Part shown: in pieces, positions 601 to 53,790 of the stretch
Layout: every line of letters starts with the position of its first letter
Numbering within the stretch: the first letter of the stretch is position 1
Assembly (NCBI RefSeq): GCF_026210795.1
Contig: NC_089440.1
Coordinates: 4,092,001-4,156,000 of the forward strand
DNA from: Rhizophagus irregularis
Taxonomy: Eukaryota > Glomeromycota > Glomeromycetes > Glomerales > Glomeraceae
DNA: 64,000 bases
Direction: 5' to 3'
The notes under the pieces: model-generated
Databases searched by the model: none
Seen by the model: the letters and a program-made list of their open reading frames with translations, nothing else
What the model was told of the DNA's origin: nothing
Made by a program: the position numbers and the translations under genes

Positions 601-3600
601 ACATCTATTCATGTCTATTTATTCTTTGATATATTTCAATACATCTATTCATATCTATTTATCTATTTATCTATTTATTCTTTGGATATTTTGCAAGCCA
701 AAATATATCTATTCATTATATTATAATTTACCAGATTTAATTGATTTAATTGAATTTACAGAATTAACCGAAATTACAAATTATATTAAATTCTATGTAG
801 AACGTATTTTTTAAAATGGATATTTATTTTTCGTTATTCCCTGTTTTTGGTTATTCGGGTAATACTAATAACGAGAATTTAATTATTAATTAATAATTTT
901 TTTTGGTATAAAGAAAAAAAAAAAACTTGTTTTTCTCAAAAGATTATGCATGTAATCTTCTTTGGTTCACGCTGACAGAGAGAAAACAGGGCACAATCCA
1001 TTTTCATAATACCCGGTAAACTTTATAGAAAGAAAAAAAAAAATAGGGTTAAACTTTATAAAGATATATTTATTTAAATCATATGTTGAAAAAATATTTT
1101 CTTTGTATTAAAAATTTTAAAGTTTGAAAACAAATCCCGTTTTTTGGTTAGATTAAACAGATAAATTTTTTTTTTTTTTGGTGGCTTGGTACCTTGTAAT
1201 AATATATTGGATTAAGGTTCATTATTTCCTTGTTTTTCCTTGTGTAATTTAATCCTTCGATAATCCGATTTTTTTTTAAAAAAAAAAAGTTTCAGAATAA
1301 TATTACATAAGAATTTTTGTTATACTAAATTTTTTAGAATCTTGGTTTAAATTACTATAAATATATTCTGGTAAAACATTAAACCCAGCATTCGGCATCT
1401 TTAAAATTGTTGTAACACATTGCAAACATATTTGACAAACATATTTGAAAAAAAGATATGTATCACTTATAAGAACAAAGGTTTAAGAAAGAAAATGAAA
1501 AAAAAAATATTATTCTTTTTGTTTATTCTTTAATTATGTATCACTGAAAAATTTTATTGAAAAAATAAAAAATAATAAACCAAAAAGGTCAAAATATATA
1601 CCCGACTAGGCCCAAACTATGATTTTATCTGACTATCATCTAATCAATCAAAAATTGAAAAATTTGGCAATATGGCGGATTTGTCAAATAAACAATAATT
1701 TTTTTTGTGATATGTGAAAAAGGTTGGACATTTCATTTTTTTTTTTTTTAAATGTCGCATTTATTATATTATTATATTTGTTTTTTTTCTTGTCTTAAGT
1801 CCGAAAAAAAAAACCCTTAAGAACTTTATTTATTAAAAATAAATAAACAAAAAAAAAAATCTTTTTTATTTTATATATATATATATATATATATAATTTT
1901 TTTTCTTTCAATTTTTGTTATTATTTTTTATTTGTTTATTTATTTTTTTTTTAAAGTTCTATTGATATTACTTGTTTCAAACTTGTTTTTAAGATTTTTT
2001 TTTTTCAAAAAAAAAATTTAGTTGTTTCGAATCTATTAGAAGAAACAAGGTTTAAACAATCAGATGATATCATTTATAATTATAAAGATCACATATCAGT
2101 CTATATTGCTGTAATATTGTATGTAACCATCGAATAACTATTGTTCTAATTACGTTGGATTTTTCCTTCTGACAAGCAATTTCCAGTACATGATCGGCAT
2201 AACCTTCAAAAAAACCTTCTTTTATTTTCAAAATAAACGAATGAAGATTCTTTCTTTCAAGAACCAGTTAAAAACATAAACATTTCATCAAAAAAAAAAA
2301 AACATACATACATAACATAACATAACATATACACATAACCATACATACAATTTATTATAATTAACAATATTAATCTATATTATTAATCTTAACTTAAAAA
2401 AAAGAACTTATCAAAATATTTTTCTTCCCTGCAACATAAAAATAAAAATAAAAAATAAAAATAAATAAAATATAAATAAATAAAAAAAACTTGAAAAAAA
2501 ACTTGAATAATAATCTTTAAAGGGTAATGACAACAACTATTGGGGACGAATTAAAGAATAAATTCTTTTTTTTTTTAACTTGTCATTCTTTAAAGGAAAA
2601 TTTTTAATTAAAATTTAGTATAATAGACAATAAGAAGTTTAGAAAAAAGAAAAAATTCGAATTTATTCTCAGCGAAACATTTTCTGAAAATGAAAAAGTC
2701 TTAATGGTGATTGACAATGCATTCGAAGCACTTCAAGAAGTCATGAGATTTGTTACACGCATTCAGTCTCATTCAATCTCATTCAATCTCATTCAGTTAT
2801 AATAAAGAACAAGTTCCAGAATGTTTTTTTTTAAAAAAAGACAAAGAATCTTTTTTACATTCTCAATTAACTTAATTTTAAAAAAAGGAAAATTAACTCG
2901 TAAACATATTGACTCAGAGAAAATAAATGTTGTTACATAAAAAAAAAATATTCGAGATTTTTGGTGAATTTTGGTTTTTTCCGAATACCGAAAAAATTTT
3001 CAATTTTTGGAATTTGTGTAAAAAAAAATAAACGGATTAATAAATTATGTTCTATATAGTTTTCATTCGATTTTAATTTCGGAATTTCCCGGATCTTACC
3101 TAAATTGATGTCAATCAAATCCCTTATAGATTAACTAAATTTAAACTAGCTTACTATAAAAGTTTTATTTTGACGTTTCTTTCTCGTAATCTTTCTTATC
3201 TTTGAGAGAAAATTATTTAATAATTTATTTTCAAAACAAAAAAAAAAAACAACTCACAAAGACACATGCATAATGTTTAGGATTCTTTCATATTATTAAA
3301 CTAAAAGTTGTATCTTTGTTATATTGAGTTTAGTATAAAACTAGATAACCGGCCGTTTTTCGGACTTCTTTAACCGGACTTTTTTTTTTTTTCCTTTTTA
3401 AAAAAAAAGCAAACATTTTTGGTTTCATATTTCAGAATTCATATGCAGAAAATGTATAAGAGTTAAATGTAAATAATATATTTTAATATAAATAATTATC
3501 TATTATTAGCGAGGGACCCACACGAAATAAGAAAGAACCGGTAATAGATAACGAGAAAAAAATTATAAACATTATAAACAATACAGCAGGGTCAAATTTA

Positions 3601-4814
3601 CAAGTTTACAAAATGTTTTTTACAGCACAAAAAAATAACAATAATAATAAACATTCTTATCAGTTATTTATTACGTATTTATTATAATCTTCATTGTTGA
3701 CAAATAAGTACGGAAAAATTAAGGAACGAAATAAAAAAAATCAATCCGTTTGATTAGATCAACGATTTGTTCGTGAAATTATATTAATTATATTAAAATG
3801 GATAATTATGATAACTATGATAACTATGATAATTTATGATAACTATGATAATTTATAATGATTATGATGCAATTTTTTTTTTTCTTATCTCTCTCATTTA
3901 TAACAACGAAGATTTATTATCTTATCTAATTTATGACCTGATTAAAGATTGTTATGCATTAATTGCTGATAACTTAATTAAACCGCCATATTCTCGTATA
4001 GCCGTAATTGCCGTAATTACAAAAACTTTACCGGGTGATATAATGTTCATTTCTATAAATTATTTGACTCGGAGAAAAGAGACCAACTTATCAAAATGGT
4101 TTCTTTTGTTGTTTTAAAATTCGGTTATTTAACTTAACTTAAAATGATATTCATAAATAAACCGAAAAATTATCCTACGCGTTATTTTTTTTTTTGATTT
4201 TTAGGTTTTCATTTTCTTTCCAAAAAACCGAAAAAATAAACCGAAAAAAAATAAATAAAAATAAATAAAAAATTAAAAGAATATTTAATAATTATAATAA
4301 TAATAACGCATGAAGATCAGGAATGACTCAGAGAATTTACAACTTGATTTTAAACTTTTTAACGCCAACCAAATTTTTTAGCATGAGAAAAAAAGAACAA
4401 TGGATCAATCAAAGGGAATAAATTTTATTGACAGGAAAAAATATAATTTTTTTTTTATTTGTTACCCTAAAAATATTATGTACCTTTTAAATCTTGTTCA
4501 TATGTATCTCAATATGCACACTTTTATTTTGACAGCCAAATAAAAAAAAAATAATAAATAAAAAAAAGATAAAAATGGAATTTTTTTTTTAAAAAAAAAT
4601 TTCTTTATTTTCTATTCTCTCTCTCTATTTCTTTGTCTGAAAAAAAAATCTAAATTTAACTTTTCGAAAAAAGAAAAAATAATAAGAAACATTATTTCTT
4701 TTTTGTTTTGTTCAATATAATAATTATTTTTTGATCTGATTGTTTTTTTTTTTGTTTTCCTTTTACGCCGTCTTAGTTACAGTATTTTTTTTTCTAAATT
4801 TCGAATTGTCGATC

Positions 4815-5010: not shown

Positions 5011-5934
5011 TATAGCAATGCCAACAAAACATGTGGTGATATTCAAAATTTTCGAACACTTGATGAATTATTTTTAATTATTCCCTTGTTAATCATTAAA
5101 AATAAAATCACGTAACGTACGTAATATAATTTACATTATTTATATTTACGTGAAGAGGTTTGGGATGACAGACCTGGGTCCCTCTTAAAATAATAAAGGA
5201 GAATAATAAATATTTTTAATAATGTCATATACTATGTTTGAACTCGGTGAAAATTATATATAGTTTGTTGTTAACTATTTAATTATTGGTAAGAATTTCC
5301 GAAATTTAATCCTTAAATATCAAACAATAAACTTACATATTTGTATAATTGTATATTTGTATATATATACATATATTTATATATACAGTACTTACTTACT
5401 TTTTATCGGTATTAGATTCTATAATAACTCATTTATATATATAATAAATAGACTAAATAGGACTAAATAGAATCATATATCATATAGCAGATAATCCTTA
5501 AAAATATCCATTTTCAATATTTATTTCCATTTCACGCGAAATGTAAATTAATGTATTATTTAAAATTACATGAAATGAATGAAGTTTTTTTTTTAAGTGA
5601 GAAAATGTATTATTTGTTGTGGGAAACGTGGGAAAGAGACAAATTAAATTGGGGGGTTTTTTATTTATTAAAAAAGGAGAAAAAAGGAATTATTTGTATA
5701 TACATACACCCTGAACTTTTTTGTTTATCAAATTTTCTGTTTATCAAATTTCTGTTTATCAAAACTTACTCTCTCTCCTTACCGTTTTTTGACGTAATAA
5801 ATAACGGTACACATGTGAATTAAACTCGAAATCAACGTATAAAAACAATTAAAACATGACGTAAATACACATGATTGTGTTTATAAATAGTCCAAGTAAA
5901 GTAAACTAAGTAAACTAAATAGACTTATAGACTT

Positions 5935-6165
5935 TATAAACTCAAAAGTAAATAGACTTGAATAGACTCAAAGGTAAATCCGAATAACTCAAAAGTAAAT
6001 CCGAATAGACTTTTATAAACTCAAAAGTAAATCCAAATAAACTTGAATAGACTTAAAAGTAAATCCAAATAGACTATTATAAACTCAAAAGTAAATAGAC
6101 TAAAGTAGACTCAGAGGTAAGTCAATAGACTCAAAAGTAAATAAATAGACCCCGAGGTAAATCAA
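5935..6165. repeat. Tandem repeat, ACTCAAAAGTAAAT(A/C)(G/C) unit
   Basis: Imperfect direct repeats of about 20-30 bp are built from TAGACTTATAAACTCAAAAGT-like pieces and run for about 230 bp. No open frame of interest is present. Confidence 0.75.
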
Positions 6166-6719
6166 TTTATATTACTTTTTTAGGTATTTTTAAAATATTT
6201 TATTTTAATAATAATATTTTTAACAAATATCAAATAATAACAATATATCAATCCTTTCAATCCTTAATCCTTTTAGCATATCCTGATTTTCTGATTATAA
6301 ATAATACTTTAATATTTTTAATATTACTAAATAGTTGATCGATTGATTGTATTGTATCACAATTAGTATTTTTCTCCTAGTTTCACCCTAAATAATATTT
6401 GTTTATATGATAGAAATAATAATAATAATAACAATAATAATAATCTAATAATTTAATTTTTTTTTTTTTATTCTTCCATATGAATGTCCATACTCCATAT
6501 GAAATGTTCGCATATGAAATGTCTCATATGAACGAAATATAGATGTCGTACAAAAAGTTACGCCACGCACGTGAATATTACATAATTTTTTTTTTTACAT
6601 TTAATAATTTTTTTTTTAAAAAAAAAAAAAAAAAAATTTTCCTTTGTCTCCTCTTTTGATTTTTTTTTTTCAACAGACTTTTGATCTTAAAACATCACGA
6701 TAATCTTAAATATCTAGAG

Positions 6720-7163
6720 ATGGGAAAATCGGCTAAATTTTATAAACGTCTTGTAAGTTAAAATATATTTAATTATCTGTTATTTTTTAATTATTTTTGA
6801 TTAATCCATAATATCCATAATATCCATAATATTCATAATATTCATAATATTAATTTTATTAATTTGAACAAATCAAAATAGTCAAAGAAAGAGAAAATAG
6901 TTCAATCAATAATCTCTAATAATGATAATAATAATAATAATATAAAATCAGAATCTCAATCTTCAATATTATTATCATCACAAGATTCATTAAACAGTGC
7001 AAAACCTTCAGCTACTACAAAAATTACTAAAAAACAAAACAAAAGGAAAAAAGTGAAGGCTGTAACAAATGGTAATGGGAATAAAAATAACGAGAAAGAT
7101 TATGTTGATATATTTACTGGGAAGAAATTATATAAATCTTTGATTGGACGAGATGAAAAATAG
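6720..7163 (+). CDS. Small basic two-exon protein of unknown function
   Basis: The gene reads join(6720..6752, 6882..7163) and gives 104 residues. Exon 1 encodes MGKSAKFYKRL and ends at a GTAAGT donor; the acceptor AAAATAG at 6881 restores the frame as SKKEK. The alternative AG at 6900 leads at once to a stop. The protein has a lysine-rich start, an Asn/Ser low-complexity middle, a basic TKKQNKRKK patch at about residues 66-74, and an ordered-looking tail DYVDIFTGKKLYKSLIGRDEK minus its last residue. The basic patch would suit a nuclear or RNA-bound protein, which is inference only. I do not recognise the family. Clean splicing, a compact frame and non-repetitive ends in otherwise repetitive sequence support a real gene. 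Confidence 0.7.
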
Positions 7164-8366
7164 TAACTTTTTTACTGATTGAAACCTGTTTGAGGTAGAA
7201 ATAATAGATAAGATTAATATTATCAAATAATTTAAATTTGTTTGTTACAGAAATCATTTTAAATTATTCAATTCAAAACTCATTTTTTTTATATGCATAT
7301 TTTTTTATATGCATATTTTTTTATATGCATATTTTTTTATATGCATTTTTTTTTATATGCATATTTTTTTATATACATATTTTTTTATATAACAAAAATA
7401 AAAAAAAAATCATTTTATACAACGAGAGAAGTTTTGGTTTTTAATAAATTTTTTATTTTTTTTTTTATATTTTTATCTGAAAACGCGATTCACGAATATT
7501 TAAAAAATACAGATGTTTTTGTACAATAAAAAAAAAAAAAATAATATACGATATATTTGATTAAAAGACGAATTTATATATGTAAGGGAAAAAAATTACA
7601 AGCTAATAATTCGAAAATTATAATACAAAAAGGAATGTGGTTTGAAAATTATTTTCAGATTTACAAAAGAATCAGGAAATCCAGAACATTAATAATTGAA
7701 GGGAGAAAATAGAAAAAAAAAAACATTTTAAAATGTTGTAATTTGTTTTAAATGGGGTAAAAAAAAGTTTGAGAAAAAAAATATGAGGTAATTAGAAAAA
7801 TTGTTAAAGAAAATTCCGAATAAAATTAAATTTTTTCGCACGTTTTTAATTGACTTAAAAAAAATTTTTTTTTGTTTTGTTTTTTTTTTTTTGTCTTTTT
7901 TAGAAAAAAAATTAAAAAGTAATAATAATAGTGGAAGGTACGTTACATCTTAATTAAAAATATATATATATATATAAAAAAATAGTTGCATAAATTCTTC
8001 TTTTACGTTTTCGTTTCACTTTTTCGTTTCACTCAAAAATAATAAAATTAAAGAGAAATTGGAGATTCTTGTTCTTAAAAGTTTTTTTTTTTTTTTTGTT
8101 TCTTTTTGTAAATATAAATACATTATATACATAAAAAATATCATAATCTAAAAAATCTTAAATTATATGGTAATTATTTGTGTGATTATAATTGCTTGCC
8201 GAATGGGTTCAATTTTTAAAAATAATTGCTTAAAAACTAAGCTAAAATAAATCGAGTTGTGCGAAAAAAAGTAAGATTATGAAAGAAGTAATATAGCGAA
8301 TTGATTTTTTTTCCCGATTCGAAATATGCTTTTTTTTCCATTTTCCCCCCGTAAATTGTTCAAGAT
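7164..8366. other. Intergenic AT-rich DNA
   Basis: No gene is seen. It contains the 16-bp tandem repeat at 7280-7392, long A and T runs and a TATA microsatellite near 7,965. Confidence 0.6.
7280..7392. repeat. 16-bp tandem repeat TTTTTTTATATGCATA
   Basis: Seven near-identical direct copies of a 16-bp unit. Reading frames through it give artificial (F)FICIFFYMH repeats, which I do not call genes. Confidence 0.85.
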
Positions 8367-39355: not shown

Positions 39356-41499
39356 ATTAATCTATTTAGCGGCACATTTCATAATAACTTGTTGATCGAA
39401 ACTCCAAAAAGCATAACTTAAAATTGATGATATCCAAAAATGGAATGACAAGTGTGTGATATTTATTTAATCTGGAAATTTAACAATTTATTATTATTTG
39501 TTTGTTAAATCTAAGATTTATCGATCTTTTTTGTGATTCTCGCGTTTCGTCATTATTTTTCATAACAAATTTCTTATTTCAATATATACGAGTTTGTATA
39601 AAATTAAAATGAAAGAAAAGCATAATTTTCGTGAATTTTTTTATTTATGTACACCAGATAATCCTAAAGCAAATAAAAAAGCAGTGTGTTTTTCTTGTAT
39701 AAGAAAACATACTTTACCTATTGCTATTTCTAAACCTGAATGTTTCGTATCTAATAAAGCATTATTATGCCGTAATCATCTGAAAAAATGTGAAAATTTT
39801 GCTCATGAATATCATGAGAGTGAAAGAGAAGAAATTTTATCACGTAAAGTACCTGAAGATGAGAAAAAAAATAAAACACAAGCAATAATAAATGAAAGTG
39901 AGATGGAAACTGATAAATCTACAACTGCTGCACCATCTAATTCAATTATTAAATAATCAACCTTATCAGGATATGTATCCCGGCCATTTTCTAAGAAAGA
40001 CATTCCTCATTTTGAAAATCTGGTATTACTAATGATGGTATCAAATGGTTTATCATTTACATTTCTGGAAAATAAAGAAACACAAGAAGTTTTTAGATTT
40101 ATTGCTCCAGCATTGAAACTTCCAGGACGTCATGCCATCAGTAATCGTATTCTTTCTAAATCTGCAAACCAACTATCTATATCAATTGTAGAGCAGGCAA
40201 AAGGTGATGCAATTGGTGTTACTGCAGCTTTTGACGGCTGGACAAATGTTAAACAAGAACATCTTTTTGGGGTTGTACTTATTACTTCATCTGGTAAAAC
40301 ACTAATTTGGGGAGCTAAGGATATTAGTGATCAACGATCTAAAACTGAAGATGTTAAAATGTTAATTAAAAATTTGATGAATAATGCCGAATTGAAACAA
40401 ATAAAAATCAATTGTTTTGTTTCTGATTCAGCTGGAGAATATGCTGCAGCAAGGTGAGTACAATTTTATATTATATATTTTATGGTATAGAATATTATTA
40501 ATAAAATCTTAATTTTTTGCTTTTTTAGATGTCAATTAAGAGTAGAATATCCAAGTAAGGTATTTTTACCTTGTATGGCCCATCAGATGAATTTGGTTGT
40601 AGGAGATATTTTTAAAGAATCACTTCAATACAAGCAAGTATCAAAAAATGCAGTTCGTATTGTTAGTTATTTTCACTCCTCTCCTTATTTCACTGGATTG
40701 TTAAGAAATGAACAAACTTCATGCTATGGTCAAACAATAGCATTGATAACTCCAGGGGAAACACGCTGGAATAGTTACTACTTTTGTTTTCACAGTATTT
40801 TAAAAACAGAAGCAGCATTAAAGGTGAGAATTATAATTTTGGCAAGTTGCTCAATAAATCAATAAATAAAATTTTTATACCTGTTTTATTAATTTTTTTA
40901 GACTTTAATAACAAAATGCTCTCCTGAACGTATTGGAACTCCAAGTACTTCTCGAGCTGGAGTATCTCGTCAACGTTATAGAACTAATTCAAATAATGAA
41001 AACAAATGTCTCCCTTCAGACATAATTGAAATTATTAATGATCCAGAATTTTGGATCCAACTATTTGAACTTCAAAATTTATTATTACCAACACTGGTCG
41101 AATGAAGGGCTACCGGGTAAATTTCATATACCCGATAGCCCTATTATATGTTTTCGATTTTAACCTGAATGGCAGCTGATCGATCCACCCGATTTGTGAC
41201 CGGTTCTCGGCGCAGATCAGGTATAAGTCATGTGACTTTCAGGTTAGAACATAACGGTAAAGTGCTATATGAATATCGGGAGAATTTCAGCAATCCGATA
41301 TTTCTCCGAACTATTTATAATATTAGATGTATATTTGCTACATCGAAACCCGAAACTTATTATTTATTCATTTATATATACTATATATTATTCATTTATT
41401 TATTTATTTAACATAATAACATATATATATATTTATTTTATTATTATATTTTTAAAAATTATATTCGTTAATTTATCCTATTCTATCTATCTACATTAT

Positions 41500-41551
41500 G
41501 TTGTTAATGGTTTGGAATATTATTCCAGTTGGTTCGATTCCAACAAACAAC
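41500..41551 (+). other. tRNA-like mini fold
   Basis: A perfect T-arm-like hairpin (GTTGG TTCGATT CCAAC) lies beside a second stem (TGGAAT ATT ATTCCA), and the outer strands GTTGTTA/AAACAAC pair. At about 52 nt it is too short for a normal tRNA and no D-arm or clear anticodon is present. It may be a tRNA-derived remnant (SINE-like) in the nested element. Not called as a tRNA. Confidence 0.3.
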
Positions 41552-41699
41552 TATTTTTCCCAAAGTTTTTATGCCAACTCTTCCGAACTATTGCCTACTA
41601 ATACCAAACGAATTAAGCAGAAGATGGATATTAGATTGTGGTGGATTAGGTTGATTTTGACTTGGTAAAATTGTGAGTGAAATATTATTTCGTTCTCTA

Positions 41700-44035
41700 T
41701 AAAAAAAAAGAACGTTTAGTAAACGTTCTTAACGAAAAATATTAAAAAAAATAAGTTCTGGTACCTTGTGTCAATTTCATCTTGAGCGAATTACCTACAA
41801 GAAAACGAAAAAAGTAACGTTAAAAATGTTACAAAAAAAATAGAAAAACCCTTCTATTTACCTTTCGTCCAAAGTCCAGTTCGTAATCTTGTCTGGCGTT
41901 CCTACTAAAAAAGAAAGAAACGTTAGTACGTTTCTTTAAAACAATTAAACACCATACACCGCATTATCCCATATACCTAAGTCCAGGTTCTCCCAAATTC
42001 CTAGGAGTCCGGTAATCTAAAAAAACAAAAAAAGAAACGTTAATACGTTTCTTTAACATAATTAAACACCAACGCTATACACTTCCCCATATACTTTACC
42101 GGGTTCTTCCAAATTCCTAGGAGTCCGGTAACCTAAAAAAATGAAAAAAAAGAAACGTTAATACGTTTCTTTAATATAATTAACGCTATACACTCCTCCC
42201 ATATATTTTACCGGATTCTTCCAAGTCCGGTAACCTAAGAAAATGAAAAAAGAAACGTTAGTACGTTTCTTTAACACAATCAAACGTCATACGCCACCCA
42301 TATATTATACCGAGACTTCCAAGTTCCTAGGAGTCCGGTAACCTAAAAAATTGAAAAAAGAACGTTGATACGTTTCTTTAACAGCCCCCATATATCTAAA
42401 TCCGATTTATTGAAAAAAAAATATTTAGTTTCGACAAAAAAACTTACCGAATTTAAATACCGAGCTCAACAAATCCTACAAAAAAAAGAAAAAGAAACGT
42501 TAAAACGTTTCTTAATAAAAAAAATAAAGTTTCGTAACGATTTTCGTTACGAAACTTACCATTTCGACCTTAGAGTACCGGAGCGGCGGAGCCTACAGAT
42601 TCTACAAAAAAAAAAATAATAAGAACGTTAAAAACGTTCTTTGAAAAATAAAAAAAATATTGAAAGTTTGAAACTTACCCTCTCTTAGGCCTTAGCATCC
42701 CAGTCCGGTATAAAAGTCGAAGGGAGCCTACAAAAATAAATAAAGAAACATTAGTAACGTTTCTTTAAAAAAAAAATAAAAAAAAAGAATCGAAGTTTCA
42801 AAACGAAACTTCGAAACCTAACCGAAATCCAATATCCAGAGAGTATCTACAAAAAAAAGAAGAAACGTTAATATAACGTTTCTTACAAAAAAAAGAATAA
42901 AAAAAAGATTGTTTTGCAACGTTTAAACTTACCGTTTCGAAACACCGAGCCGAACACTTCGAACCTACAAAAAAGAGAGAAACGTTAATATAACGTTTCT
43001 CAAAGAAAAAAATTTTTTAAGTTTCGTAACGTAACTAAACGTCGCGAAACTCACCGTCATTTTGAATTTCACAAGGCCGAAATACTTGAACCTACAAAAA
43101 AAAAGAGAGAAACGTTAATATAACGTTTCTTACAAAAAAAAATAAATAAAAAATAAGTTTCGCGTTGTGAAACTTACCATTCGAGGTTTGCCATTTCGAA
43201 GCTCCCCACTTGAACCTACAGAAAAAAAGGAAACGTCAGAATAACGTTTCTCAAACTCTCCAAAGAAAAAAAAATTGTAAGTTTCGCAAGCGCTGCGAAA
43301 CTTACCGTTCGTTTCGTTGAAAAATGAAAAAAGATATTTCGAAGTATACTTGAAGTATATCTTCGAAATGTCAAATTTAATTTCGTCCGTCTAAGGAGCC
43401 GCCCAAAAGAAACCGAACCTAAAAGAAAAAAAAACGAAACGTTAATAAACGTTTCGTTGAAAAAAAACAAAAAAAAAATATATTTCGAAGTATACTTCAA
43501 GTATACCTTCGAAATGTCGAATAAGGAGCCGCCCAAAGAAGTCGAACCTAAAAAAGCAAAAAAAACGAAGCGTTAATAAACGTTTCGTTGAAAAAAAAAA
43601 ACCCAAAAAAGAAAGACATTTTGAAGTATATATACCTTCAAAATGTCTTATTGATTTCCGTCCGTCCAAGAAGCCAAGAAGCCGCCCAAAGAAGCCGAAC
43701 CTAAAAGAAAAAAGAAACGAAACGTTAATAAACGTTTCGTTAGTCGAAAAAAACAAAAAAATAATTATTTCGAAGTATACTCGAAGTATACCTTCGAAAT
43801 ATCGAGTTCCGTCTCAAGGAGCTGCCCAGCCGAACCTAAAAAAGCAAAAAAAACGAAGCGTTAATAAACGTTTCGCTAGTCGAAAAAATAAAAAAATAAA
43901 TTATTTCGAAGAAGTATACCTTCGAAATGTCGAATTCCGAACCTATACCTTCGGCGTTCTGGACCTAAAAAATAAAAAAGAATATTAGTGCTAACGTTCA
44001 TTAAAACAAATAAAAAAAAATTTTTTGCTTACTCC
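41700..44035 (-). repeat. Array of about 19 hairpin units with splice-site borders (micro-exon-like)
   Basis: Units of about 100-150 bp each contain a short inverted repeat, e.g. AGAAACGTTA ATA TAACGTTTCT. On the minus strand each is followed by a T-rich tract ending TTTTAG or TTTTTGTAG, then a 24-65 nt GC-richer piece usually starting GTT(C), then G|GTAAGT, GGTATAC or a similar donor. Examples of exon-like pieces: 43178-43215, 43055-43091, 42933-42964, 42823-42846, 42679-42727, 42560-42592, 42448-42475, with intron-like gaps of 84-95 nt. Three unit classes are visible: 41850-42395 (shared CTAGGAGTCCGGTAAC), 42440-43310 (GTTTCG inverted repeat at the donor) and 43316-43970 (shared AAGGAGCCGCCCAAAGAAG). 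Stem variants keep pairing. No transcript evidence is available. Confidence 0.75.
42679..43970 (-). other. Predicted spliced reading frame through micro-exons
   Basis: Joining the minus-strand pieces 43918-43962, 43790-43835 (approximately), 43636-43700, 43507-43547, 43306-43418, 43178-43215, 43055-43091, 42933-42964, 42823-42846 and 42679-42727 at their GT-AG borders keeps one frame open except for a single TGA. That TGA lies in 43636-43700, where sister exons read CGA (a CpG to TpG change). From 43547 the frame runs for roughly 105 codons without a stop to a TAA inside 42679-42727, and includes GSFEMANLEWFKYFG. Several exons encode variants of FGRLL and RHFE. No known domain is recognised. 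At least one sister unit (about 43360) lacks its donor GT. Hypothetical. Confidence 0.4.
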
Positions 44036-45936
44036 GGAAGACTGGAACTAATTTAGATACCGGTATATGTCTTCGGCTTCCTTAAAGTCTCCAAGAGTCC
44101 GGCGTTTCCTTCAAAAGAAAAGAAGTCCGGAGACTACTAAAGTGAAACTTTTTAATCCGTTTCTGCATGTTGCAGATTATATTCCGAACGTTGGACGAGC
44201 TTGCCAGAAGTTAGAAATTTGATTTCGAGTTAAATATTTGGTTCTTCAAAAGGTGTGATAAAAATTTATTTATTTAAAGTATTGTAAGAAAAAAGTTAAA
44301 AAAAAATTAACTTTAAAGTGTAAAAAAAAAAAGTTTATCAATTAAAAAAAAGATCGAAGATTTTTGTGGGAATAGAAATAATTACATGCCGTAAATTATT
44401 CCAATGACCTATCAGACTACTGATAGGTATAATAAAATTTTCTGATATTTTAATGATATGTCTTTAAAAAATCAGATTTTTTTCATAAAATATTATTAAA
44501 CATTTCGGATTACCGATACTTGTAAATGTTTAATATTGCCTATCATGCCATATCGGGTTTCTGATTATTTCCTGATATTTGACCAATACGTTATTACCCG
44601 ATATTTCATCATTTGACCAGTGGCAATATGCAGCGCATTAAATAAATTACAAAAGGATATTGCGCGCCTATATGAAATTGCACACTGCTTTGGTTGGATA
44701 ATTAAAATATTTTCTTCTCACAAAAACGTAGAATTTGGTAATTGCATGATAGCAAGATTAGAATCACGCTGGGCACAGTGGGAACAGCCATTACTATTAC
44801 TTTCAATTGTTCTTCATCCAAAATATCGAGTTTCAAAATTTAATTCTTCTGCTAAAAATATTTCTTATACACATTTTGGACAATGGCTTATATATTACTA
44901 TCAAGCATGGTTTAATGAAACACCAAAAAGAATCCTTCGTGATTATTTATCATATCAACGTGAGCTTTTTCCTTTTAATTCTGAAACTTATAATCAGTTT
45001 GAAGAAAATATTATTGATTTCTGGGAATCTGCCAAAGGATTGGCACCTGAACTCTCAAAATTAGCTTTACATCTTTTTGGGATCTGCGTTAATGCAGCTT
45101 CAGTGGAACGTCTTTGGTCAAATATGGGTTTTTTACATTCAACCCGCCGAAATAAATTATATGTAAGTGTATTTTACCAAAATTTATATTATGCAAAATC
45201 ACATTAACAAAAGATTATACATTTTTAATTTTGTAGCATAAGAAAGTTTTGGCTATGGCTCAATTGCGAAGTGATATATTATGTAAAAGAAAACGTGATG
45301 ATATAGAAATTTCTGAACGACAATATAAACGATTACATATTGCTGAACCAATCCAAGAATACCAATCAGATGAAGAAGACACAAATGATAATGAGTTCAC
45401 ATTTAATGCTTTTAACGATAGTGATACTGAAGAACTAGAAGAAACTTCTGTTATTGATGAATGTAATGTTAATGATACCTTTGAAAAAACTAATAATAGT
45501 GATAATATTAATTCTGAACAATGGACTAAAATAATTGAAGATTGGATTAAAATGGTTAATGCAGAAATTAATATAAATAATACAGAAGTTATAGGCGAAG
45601 AAACATATGAATTTGAAATAGGTGGACAAAGTATTCATCCAGCAGATAATCCATTGGCTAAATGGAAGTTACTTGATTTGTTTAATGAGACTTTAGAAGC
45701 TCCAGTTAATATGTTTTAATAATAAATTGTGAATTTGTGATTAAGTAATTTTTACTTTTATTAAATAATACGCTATAATAAAGATTTATTATATTAAATA
45801 ATTTTGGCCGGCATTACAGCTCACATGACATAATTTCAAATGACATAATATTGTCATTTACTCACTGAAATGACATAATGATACGTGACATGTCACTAAT
45901 GTCATTTGTGTCATTTAATATCACTTCACAACACTG

Positions 45937-48876: not shown

Positions 48877-50558
48877 ATGGGTCGTCCTCGAGCAAATAAA
48901 AGTAGTAACCGCTCAACAATAACAGAGAAAAAAAGGAGACACTGGAACGCACGCGAAAAAGTTGCAATTATTATATATCATGAAAATAACCATAGTAAAA
49001 ATAAGACAGCAGCAAAGTTTAACATTCAAACAAACCAACTTCGCAACTGGATATCTAAAAAACCTCAGTTACTGAAAGTACAACCAGGTGTTAAACGTTT
49101 AAATACAGGAGCAAAACCAAAATACCCTGCTTTAGAAACTGCTTTGCTTATTTGGGTAAAAGAAAAAAGAAAAAATCAAAATGCAGTTACACAAAGCATG
49201 ATTCAAATGAAGGCCAAAGCACTTGCACAACAACGCCAATGGCAAGTTACATGTTCTGGTGTTGGATCTTTTGCTTTTAGTAATAAGTGGCTAGATGGTT
49301 TTATGCGACAAAAAAATTTGAGTAATCGCTGCCGTACTACTGTTGCGCAACATTTACCTGATGATCTAGTTGAAAAACAACAAGAATTTTTATCATACAT
49401 TGTGTATCGGTGTGTTCAGTATGATTATCCTTTAGCATATATTGGTAACATGGATAAAACGCCGGTATCCTTTGATCTTCCTTCCAATACCACTATTGAT
49501 GAATTGGATACACGATCAGTTAGCATCCGCACAACAGGACATGAAAAAGCTAACTTTACAGTAGTTTTAACGTGTATGGCAGATGGAACAAAACTTCCTC
49601 CACTTATAATTTTCAAACTTAAGAATGTTCCTCGAGGAAATTTTCCTTCTGAAGTAATTATTCGTGCAAATCAAAAGGGTTGGATGAATGAAAATGAGAT
49701 GCTTTATTGGATCGAAAACATTTGGACTAAACGTGAAAGAGTTTCTAATCCACAGTCATTATTGGTTTTGGATTCGTTTTCTGCTCACATAGTTGATTCT
49801 GTTAAAAGGCGTTTTGGTGAAAAAATACCAATATTGCTGTAATTCCTGGAGGATTAACATCCCGCCTACAACCTTTAGATGTTTCAGTGAATAAATCATT
49901 TAAGACCAAGGTAATAAGTATTACTCTGATCCCTTTGACAATATCATTTAATTCTATTTTGCTTTTTTGATTCTAGTAGTTATAATAAAAAAAAAATAAT
50001 AATAAATATTAAAACATGTTATTATTATCCTATAGATGCGACGAAACTATAATGAATGGATGGCAGAAGCGTAAAAGAGTTAACACCAGCTGGTAATTTA
50101 AAAAAACCTCTTACGAAACTGTAGCAAAGTGGGTTAGAGATTCATGGAATGCAGTTGATGTTAATTTGATTCAGAAATCTTTTAAATGCTGTGGCATCTC
50201 TAATAAGCGTGATGGAACTGAAGATGACTGGATTTTTAACTATAATCGACTTGGACAAGGAAATCAGCCAGGGGATGAAGTAGAAATGCCATCAGATGAT
50301 GAACGTGGCAATAATGAGGAAGGGAAAACAGATGGTGAATATGTTGGCAAGGAGAGGGAAACGGATGAGAAATATGTTGATGAGGAAGGGGAGGAGGATG
50401 ATGAGGGAGAATACGAAGGGGAAGAGGATGAAGAGGGAGAATACGAAGGGGAAGAGGATGAAGAGGGAGAATATGAAGGGGAAGAGGATGGATATGATAA
50501 TAAATACCATAGTCACTATGAACAAGGAACAAATTACGTTAATGTGTGGGATGATTAA
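48877..50558 (+). pseudogene. pogo/Tigger DDE transposase, frameshifted
   Basis: The N-terminus carries a helix-turn-helix (KNKTAAKFNIQTNQLRNWI) and a CENP-B/Tc5-type second HTH region (WVKEKRKNQNAVTQ, then FAFSNKWLDGFMRQ). The catalytic Asp residues are visible in GNMDKTP, LVLDSFSAH and, after a frameshift at about 49827, RLQPLDVSVNKSFK, giving roughly DD35D spacing. The first exon would end at 49910 with an intron to about 50035 (AG before ATGCGACG). The second exon shows further frame changes near 50072 and 50105, then runs open to 50558. The tail is acidic with three copies of EGEYEGEEDE encoded by a 30-bp repeat (about 50401-50490). Probably inactive, but it is full length and only mildly decayed. 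Confidence 0.9.
50401..50490 (+). repeat. 30-bp tandem repeat coding EGEYEGEEDE
   Basis: Three near-identical 30-bp units in the transposase tail. It is in frame, so it expands an acidic stretch. Long minus-strand frames here are shadows of this repeat. Confidence 0.85.
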
Positions 50559-53040: not shown

Positions 53041-53790
53041 AACTTTTTTCTTTAATCCTTTTTTTATTTTAATTTTAAAAATCTGGTCATATTTTTTATT
53101 TAATAAGCTAGCAATCTTATAAAAAAGAAAAAATAAATTAAATTTATTAAAAAAAGTGAAAACCCTTCATCTGCTTTTTCTTACCTTAATTTTTCAAAAG
53201 TCTGGTTTTGTTTTTCATTTAAAAGTTCTATAAAAGAAAAAAAAATAAATTAAATTTATTAAAAAAAGTGAAAACCCTTCATCTGCTTTTTCTTACCTTA
53301 ATTTTTTAAAAGTCTGGTTTTGTTTTTCATTTAAAAGTTCTATAAAGAAAAAAAAAATAAATTAAATTTATTAAAAAAAGTGAAAACCCTTCATCTGCTT
53401 TTTCTTACCTTAATTTTTCAAAAGTCTGGTTTTGTTTTTCATTTAAAAGTTCTATAAAGGAAAAAAAATAAATTAAATTTATTAAAAAAATAATAAAATC
53501 ATCTTTTCCAACCTTATATTTAAAATTCAGAAAAAAACAATATTTACAAAAATAAAAGAAAAAGAAATGTTAGTAATATGTTTCTTAAAGTTAATTTTGA
53601 AACTTCATCTTAAAGAAACCAATTTACAGTAAAAATTCTTCAGTTATGTTTTTCATTCAATAACTTTAAAGAAAAAAAAATAACAAACCTTTTTTTCCAT
53701 ATAATTCAATTGTCCAGTCATATTTTTCATTTGGCAAGTTAATAACTTTACAAAAAAGAAAAAATAAATTAAATTTATTAAATTCTTTTT
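53041..53790 (-). repeat. Second hairpin/mini-exon-like array, 112-bp units
   Basis: Three near-perfect 112-bp copies (exon-like pieces at 53185-53227, 53297-53339, 53409-53451, 43 nt each) are flanked by decayed copies on both sides. On the minus strand each piece sits between TTTCTTTATAG (or TTTTATAG) and G|GTAAGAAAAAG; the 69-nt gap contains the inverted repeat AATAAATT A AATTTATT just before the T-rich acceptor. A flanking copy at about 53571-53595 has AGAAATGTTAGTAATATGTTTCT, recognisably the hairpin of the 41.7-44.0 kb array with C-to-T changes. Sequence differs from that array but the layout is the same. The exon-like piece has stop codons. Confidence 0.65.

Follow-up and report, generated by a model that had tools for sequence, protein, structure and literature searches.

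Tandem arrays of micro-exons and hairpin introns, probably spliced and non-coding, in mobile elements of Rhizophagus irregularis

In a 64,000-nucleotide stretch of the genome of the fungus Rhizophagus irregularis (contig NC_089440.1, positions 4,092,001 to 4,156,000, forward strand; hereafter the window), a CACTG-ended mobile element carries on its minus strand an array of 18 micro-exons that alternate with 19 short introns, most of which hold a hairpin at the presumed branch site. Arrays of this kind recur at many places in the genome and lie in at least two different mobile carriers. We consider it probable, from sequence analysis, that they are spliced non-coding micro-exon arrays which grew by duplication of an exon-plus-intron unit and were spread by transposons. 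All coordinates are window positions unless a locus or contig name (L0xx, C1, and so on) is given; the genome searched comprised 146,748,485 bases in 32 contigs.

RESULTS

The minus strand of 41,697-44,032 was found to consist of 18 micro-exons (23 to 113 nt) alternating with GT...AG introns (67 to 105 nt), 17 of which, spanning the same size range, lie between the exons, with a first (43,965-44,032) and a last intron (41,697-41,764) on either side. All 18 exon pieces have TAG directly before them and GT directly after, and GC content is 0.46 in exons versus 0.26 in introns. When splice sites were chained with generic weights over 41,700-44,035, the minus strand scored 350 (18 introns) and the plus strand 36; under the same chain, 60 dinucleotide shuffles had a mean of 103 and a maximum of 194, and 98 other overlapping segments of the window, on both strands, reached at most 87. 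Run over the whole element, the generic chain returned 16 of the 19 array introns with identical borders, gave i2, i14, and i17 another donor or acceptor, and added three weak introns outside the array; an array-trained chain favored 44,060 as the donor of the first intron. A strict rule found the hairpin core in 15 of the 17 introns i2 to i18, and the core of i2 and i4 is the variant AACGTT..AACGCT. The initial annotation of this stretch had described a minus-strand array of this form, with GC-richer exon-like pieces and an inverted repeat in nearly every gap, all of which was borne out and, as shown below, understated; its statement that most pieces start with GTTC applied to only 7 of 18 exons (E3 to E9).

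Two types of hairpin were seen. In the first, the donor pairs with downstream sequence, or the end of the exon pairs with the start of the intron and the donor lies in the loop; the second is the AACGTT palindrome with a branch-like YTRAY. Four introns were folded: i6, i7, and i8 each formed two separate local hairpins, and i9 formed the branch hairpin only, inside a weak outer pairing. The ordinary-intron control for folding had only 6 members and is given little weight. No Rfam 15 family was matched: 41,000-44,700 gave nothing up to E = 1, and the window had no hit that reached the gathering score. The features of the array are as follows (the public model is RIR_jg38097.t1, described below).

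44033-44622, minus: likely promoter and first-exon region (transcript start presumed; first donor CCGGA/GTAAGC at 44,032 or 44,060)
43965-44032, minus: intron i1, 68 nt (generic splice chain)
43920-43964, minus: exon E2, 45 nt (splice signals; low edge as in the public model on copy L017)
43836-43919, minus: intron i2, 84 nt, donor in hairpin loop (splice signals, stem test)
43792-43835, minus: exon E3, 44 nt, 45 in most copies (splice signals; both edges as in the public model)
43701-43791, minus: intron i3, 91 nt, branch hairpin AACGAAACGTTTATTAACGTTTCGTT (splice signals, array-trained chain)
43636-43700, minus: exon E4, 65 nt (splice signals; both edges as in the public model)
43548-43635, minus: intron i4, 88 nt (splice signals)
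43507-43547, minus: exon E5, 41 nt (splice signals; both edges as in the public model)
43419-43506, minus: intron i5, 88 nt (splice signals)
43306-43418, minus: exon E6, 113 nt (splice signals)
43216-43305, minus: intron i6, 90 nt, 5' hairpin and branch hairpin (splice signals, fold)
43178-43215, minus: exon E7, 38 nt (splice signals; both edges as in the public model)
43092-43177, minus: intron i7, 86 nt (splice signals, fold)
43055-43091, minus: exon E8, 37 nt (splice signals)
42965-43054, minus: intron i8, 90 nt (splice signals, fold)
42933-42964, minus: exon E9, 32 nt (splice signals)
42847-42932, minus: intron i9, 86 nt (splice signals, fold)
42823-42846, minus: exon E10, 24 nt, recognizable in L029 to L032 (splice signals; both edges as in the public model)
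42728-42822, minus: intron i10, 95 nt, donor GTTAGG (splice signals)
42679-42727, minus: exon E11, 49 nt (splice signals; both edges as in the public model)
42602-42678, minus: intron i11, 77 nt (splice signals)
42560-42601, minus: exon E12, 42 nt (splice signals; both edges as in the public model)
42476-42559, minus: intron i12, 84 nt, long 5' stem (splice signals, stem test)
42448-42475, minus: exon E13, 28 nt (splice signals; acceptor as in the public model)
42343-42447, minus: intron i13, 105 nt (splice signals)
42311-42342, minus: exon E14, 32 nt (splice signals)
42235-42310, minus: intron i14, 76 nt (splice signals)
42212-42234, minus: exon E15, 23 nt (splice signals)
42133-42211, minus: intron i15, 79 nt (splice signals)
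42100-42132, minus: exon E16, 33 nt (splice signals)
42017-42099, minus: intron i16, 83 nt (splice signals)
41977-42016, minus: exon E17, 40 nt (splice signals)
41902-41976, minus: intron i17, 75 nt (splice signals)
41862-41901, minus: exon E18, 40 nt (splice signals)
41795-41861, minus: intron i18, 67 nt (splice signals)
41765-41794, minus: exon E19, 30 nt (splice signals)
41697-41764, minus: intron i19, 68 nt (both splice chains)

Exon E6 looks like a fused unit that has lost its own donor (AT instead of GT) together with the next branch hairpin and acceptor.

Hairpin arms were compared in 127 introns of 13 arrays, with borders curated by hand; the set excludes units that were misparsed or whose borders are lost or unclear, among them some of L053, L054, L055, L056, L058, and L059. 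Two introns with borders other than GT/GC-AG (L029_479 and L031_966) were dropped from the core-rule, fold, covariation, and mismatch counts, the latter being retained in the +3-stem set (n = 34). The hairpin core was present in 105 of the 127 introns, with 64 distinct flank pairs and a branch-point-like YTRAY within the repeated core in 86 of the 105. Flanks of the branch hairpin paired with their own partners at 4.20 of 6 positions, versus a permuted mean of 3.39 and maximum of 3.84 (0/10,000 permutations). The stem at the exon-intron junction likewise scored 6.74 with its own partner, versus 6.07 after swapping within the array (P = 1.8e-4) and 5.54 with partners from other arrays (P = 6.4e-6), and was higher with its own partner than with those of other arrays in 10 of 13 arrays; for the +3 stem, P was 0.024 over the whole arm and 0.0004 over the inner part. 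All of these P values are optimistic because the units are related. When hairpins were located blind to the splice site, 91 of 108 (13 loci) were followed by a T-rich run and YAG, and 11 by YGA.

A genome-wide search for the branch palindrome followed by a T-tract acceptor yielded 541 matches, versus 83 for the pattern read backwards. The 100 listed matches came from 61 loci, of which 19 contained two or more. All six clusters picked by eye from these 19 resembled arrays, as did three of the four singletons, taken from the first ones on C1 (in 1 kb, these three had chain scores of 67, 111, and 128, and the fourth had 10). Because of the excess of matches and the outcome at these clusters and singletons, we estimate some hundreds of arrays, which is not a count. 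This search had been proposed in the initial annotation to find further arrays with the same core. Donor classes vary between arrays yet mostly retain GT in good context. Other dispersed repeats also matched the hairpin patterns (at G000:C1:3424888, C6:99050, and C2:538776, among others), with cores such as GCGAAAACG or TTTCGCAACG; these look unlike the array introns.

Introns that arrived one at a time, as introners inserted singly into a transcribed region, would also be alike within one array, and introners often carry inverted repeats, as described in PMC9860276 and PMC7789003. The mark of introners, the same intron at separate positions of coding genes, was not what we found: 9 of 10 examined loci with the pattern were array-like, three of the four singletons included, and exons repeat in register with introns, as follows from duplication of the whole unit. 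Single insertion is therefore extremely improbable, and growth by duplication of an exon-plus-intron unit, as first suggested for the window array, agrees with the register. A separate minus-strand repeat at 53,116-53,450, with a period of 112 and 96% matches, has three copies in tandem; in each, 43 nt resembling an exon are joined to 69 nt resembling a GT-AG intron. It lacks the AACGTT hairpin and looks like a young exon-plus-intron duplication.

As had been proposed, the window array lies in a CACTG-ended mobile element; the boundaries of the element are common to its copies.

41092-44622, strand not assigned: whole mobile element, 3,531 bp, CACTG-ended (boundaries common to copies; terminal inverted repeat and target site duplication)
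41092-41105, plus: terminal inverted repeat CACTGGTCGAATGA (comparison of the copies' ends)
44609-44622, minus: terminal inverted repeat CACTGGTCAAATGA, read on the minus strand (comparison of the copies' ends)

The terminal inverted repeat (TIR) reads CACTGGTC(R)AATGA; the second end is a near-perfect inverted copy of CACTGGTCGAATGA, and CACTGGTCRAATGA is present at both ends. Among the 17 copies with both ends found, 11 have a 3-bp target duplication, and the window copy is without one. Both the CACTG ends and a target duplication of 3 bp are characteristic of CACTA/CMC elements. No transposase was found inside the element, the interior of which is the array; judged by TIR and target duplication, it is a CACTA/CMC (EnSpm)-like, non-autonomous element. 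The presumed promoter end (44,040-44,622) recurs at 97 to 100% identity at 17 places and at 92% at an 18th.

The carrier of the L052 array is another mobile element, distinct from the CACTG one; it measures 1,611 bp, has the TIR AAGGTTGCYTGCCGAAACT and, in the one copy checked, shows a 10-bp target duplication (ACAACCAACT) on both sides. Its flank recurs at 11 places at 96 to 100% identity, itself included. MULE-like elements have target site duplications of about 8 to 11 bp, and by duplication size in that one copy, the L052 carrier is MULE-like. At L059 (G000:C5:1943400-1951400), one end is 84% alike to the CACTG element, and two arrays of 16 introns each lie at 2552-4523 and 5542-7439 of the locus, which has no open frame of at least 110 amino acids (aa). 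The many arrays in the genome, the presence of at least two different carriers, and the YTRAY in the core go beyond the initial annotation.

Around the window element, a hAT-like transposase region is split into 40,500-41,091 and 44,623-45,207 (plus strand). The open frame that starts at the element's end (44,623-45,207) carries a hAT dimerization domain, and 40,500-41,091, read by eye, appears to be the upstream part of the transposase. Farther on, at 48,877-49,842 (plus strand), an open frame of 321 aa encodes a pogo-like transposase, which has a DDE_1 domain and a DNA-binding domain of the CENP-B/Tc5 type.

Public gene models offered a comparison for the predicted junctions. On copy L017 of the element, all 115 residues of RIR_jg38097.t1 fit; its exons were obtained by spliced mapping of the protein, and only the protein sequence was used. 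Exons E3, E4, E5, E7, E10, E11, and E12 agree with it at both edges, and E2, E6, and E13 at one edge. For OCT59_000823, a protein found through another array and mapped to part of its own locus, three of six introns equal those of the ab initio chain, and a fourth equals that of the curated list after a 1-nt correction; its total mapping score is negative because the protein extends beyond the mapped part. The translation of L053 was matched at E up to 1 by 14 R. irregularis protein models, and that of the window array by one. The hypothetical proteins OCT59_000823, RIR_jg38097.t1, and RIR_jg10448.t1, among others, appear to be translations of non-coding arrays. The two annotations of this fungus were built with RNA-seq evidence (PMC6123716, PMC10234402), and RIR_jg38097.t1 and OCT59_000823 seem, from their names and record details, to belong to them.

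That public models translate parts of the array might indicate a protein-coding gene of serial micro-exons, such as the micro-exon genes (MEGs) of flatworms or the bicycle genes of aphids, possibly encoding an effector. We considered the coding potential of 110 exons with hand-curated borders (12 sets from 11 loci; L029 provided two sets, L031 was left out, and one L053 border was 1 nt off, which was put right in the set of 127 introns). Exon lengths modulo 3 (0/1/2) were 30/42/38. The longest open stretch of the joined exons was 54 to 120 aa per set and was matched by 4 to 59 of 100 dinucleotide shuffles (by at most 10 in six of the 12 sets), which amounts to a mild overall excess (combined P = 0.022); against a phase-jittered control that keeps the exon sequence and the repeats, there was no overall excess (P = 0.20). 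Within one public model, the frame of translation differs between homologous exons, and in six between-locus comparisons exon identity exceeded that of intron bodies by at most 0.01 and was lower in four; the alignment misplaced some borders (GT/AG identity, 0.69 to 1.00) and was used only for this exon versus intron-body comparison. The arrays thus look non-coding, with exon lengths blind to frame, and a coding micro-exon gene is very improbable. The serial micro-exons and introns postulated earlier are supported, seven exons having both edges in common with RIR_jg38097.t1; a protein product is not supported. One set, that of L057 (G000:C1:7508300-7509500), was alone in standing out over both controls (4/100 shuffles, 3/300 phase jitters); most of its exons measure 42 nt, its open frame spans 54 aa, and it may be a coding exception. 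SP7-like effector genes, considered on account of their repeats, were dropped, since PMC11333574 describes for them one conserved intron before the first repeat.

Loci L029 to L032 are diverged arrays that keep the order of some exons: E10 and its neighbors recur in order at all four, which were not shown to lie inside mobile elements. This order would fit a host gene of several exons that was captured and decayed (Pack-type transduplication), the units of which multiplied later inside the element, and CACTA and MULE elements are known to capture genes. Protein searches with array translations found no ancestral coding gene, and the tested exon sets look non-coding. We regard such an origin as distinctly unlikely; it concerns where the arrays came from and can be compatible with spliced, transposon-borne, non-coding arrays.

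Several observations weigh against the reading as spliced, non-coding arrays spread by transposons. The singleton L060 contained no array, and borders are lost or unclear in E6 and in several units of L031, L053, and L055. RIR_jg38097.t1 lacks E8, E9, and E14 to E19 and includes only 5 nt of E6; the protein search with the L057 translation returned no model; and gene models made by predictors with RNA-seq hints could rest on signal alone. The junction stem was no better than swapped partners in L031, L052, and L058, and the bridging stem (class A) alone gave P = 0.11 (n = 12). GT donors were present in 126 of 127 introns, which is no measure of retention because introns had been selected as GT/GC-AG. 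Constraint on splice sites within the CACTG family is weak, with changes at 1/2010 splice-site versus 72/25,014 other non-CpG sites in 14 young copies (P = 0.024) and 14/591 versus 236/6,958 in five old copies (P = 0.11). Stem mismatches show no G.U bias (G.U 13 versus A.C 15 in the branch hairpin, 22 versus 17 in the 5' stem), and genome-wide, wobble in the 5' arm (114; control, 44) was hardly commoner than mismatch (103; control, 48).

The last of these points bear on a different account, in which the array is a palindromic DNA repeat: slippage and unequal exchange, driven by the inverted repeats, would multiply the unit, template switching would maintain the match of the arms, and the splice signals, inherited from one ancestral intron, would be hardly or never used. 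Symmetric G.U and A.C mismatches are what DNA-level upkeep or plain decay predicts, and between loci the conservation of exons is at best slightly above that of introns. The 14 young copies, which differ from the window element by 14 to 30 substitutions over 2.8 to 3.5 kb, also fit it: of the 107 distinct changes among them, 80 are C>T/G>A, and 50 of these fall at CpG. Hypermutation of the array relative to the element ends was considered: CpG sites of the array change about 5 times as often as non-CpG sites, but non-CpG variation too is higher in the array (0.0029) than in the element ends (0.0004), and we read only part of this excess as alignment noise in T-runs. Against a mere DNA repeat stand the coupling of hairpins to a T-tract and AG (91/108, with YGA in 11), donor classes that differ between arrays and mostly keep GT in good context, and the agreement of a public gene model with the junctions. 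We consider this account unlikely, if less so than gene capture. The hairpin arms do match each other; their match could be kept up either by selection on RNA or by DNA-level correction, the latter being compatible with the data because stem mismatches have no G.U bias.

DISCUSSION

The arrangement described here is best explained, in our opinion, by spliced non-coding arrays, and we propose the following mechanism. A non-autonomous, CACTG-ended DNA transposon would carry a minus-strand transcription unit of serial micro-exons, in which an exon multiplies together with one intron. By its look, each intron would be a self-contained, intron-defined intron of the U2 type; most contain, just before the T-tract and AG, a hairpin whose palindromic core, AACGTT(N)AACGTT, includes the branch-point-like YTRAY. 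Many introns, not in every array, have a second hairpin at the 5' splice site: either the stem spans the exon-intron border and the donor lies in its loop (TTTCGAAG/GTATA..CTTCGAAA), or the stem begins at +3 and the donor lies at its foot (GTAAGTTTCG..CGAAACTTA). If introns fold locally during transcription, each donor would be matched to the branch site of the same intron, and mispairing among dozens of nearly identical splice sites could be avoided. The product would be a non-coding RNA of joined micro-exons, the sequence of which drifts while splice signals and hairpins stay. The benefit to the element would most plausibly be a well-spliced transcript that escapes silencing or is better exported. 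The interpretation offered in the initial annotation is in this respect partly supported.

More tentatively, since we hold it somewhat short of probable, the arrays may constitute a genome-wide class of non-coding genes in R. irregularis in which splicing itself is the conserved content: tandem micro-exon/hairpin-intron arrays, at loci that would number in the hundreds, whose structured introns keep the branch site, and often the donor, in hairpins, carried by at least two non-autonomous transposons and partly present in databases as lineage-restricted protein genes.

If spliced, the arrays would be natural tests of how a spliceosome faced with dozens of nearly identical sites, spaced by about 100 nt, selects among them, and of whether hairpins at donor and branch site decide that choice; they would also show introns multiplying in tandem, not by insertion. 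Annotation is affected as well: some proteins of R. irregularis that are listed as "uncharacterized" seem to be translated non-coding arrays, and such models could make young, lineage-restricted genes look more numerous than they are in this important plant symbiont. The fungus is reported to have 40 AGO-like genes (PMC11075540), and the question arises what a transposon would gain from a heavily spliced non-coding transcript in such a fungus.

Our literature searches, which covered open-licence PubMed Central papers and no subscription papers, turned up no description of such arrays. Nearest in kind are the introners of fungi, algae, and Amoebophrya, which are repeated spliceosomal introns, often with inverted repeats or marks of DNA transposons, as described in PMC9860276, PMC7789003, and PMC4457414; introners are scattered over genes, whereas here exon-plus-intron units stand in tandem, are apparently non-coding, and form arrays inside larger transposons. 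The internally symmetrical stwintrons and sister introns of Hypoxylaceae (PMC8469720) are likewise multiplied fungal U2 introns with marked inverted repeats; those described there have terminal inverted repeats of 45 to 55 nt and derive from an ancestral stwintron inserted at gene positions, whereas the introns described here stand in tandem arrays and have hairpins that are short and local, placed at the branch site and often also around the donor. The MEGs of Schistosoma resemble the arrays in their serial very short exons (PMC10526429). As described in that source, these are coding exons, mostly multiples of three, with introns of 100 to almost 5000 bp; the arrays have frame-blind exon lengths (30/42/38), no single open frame through the exons, and introns of 67 to 105 nt. 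With CACTA/CMC (EnSpm) elements, finally, the window element shares CACTG ends and the 3-bp target duplication; it differs from them in that its interior, in which no transposase was found, is the array.

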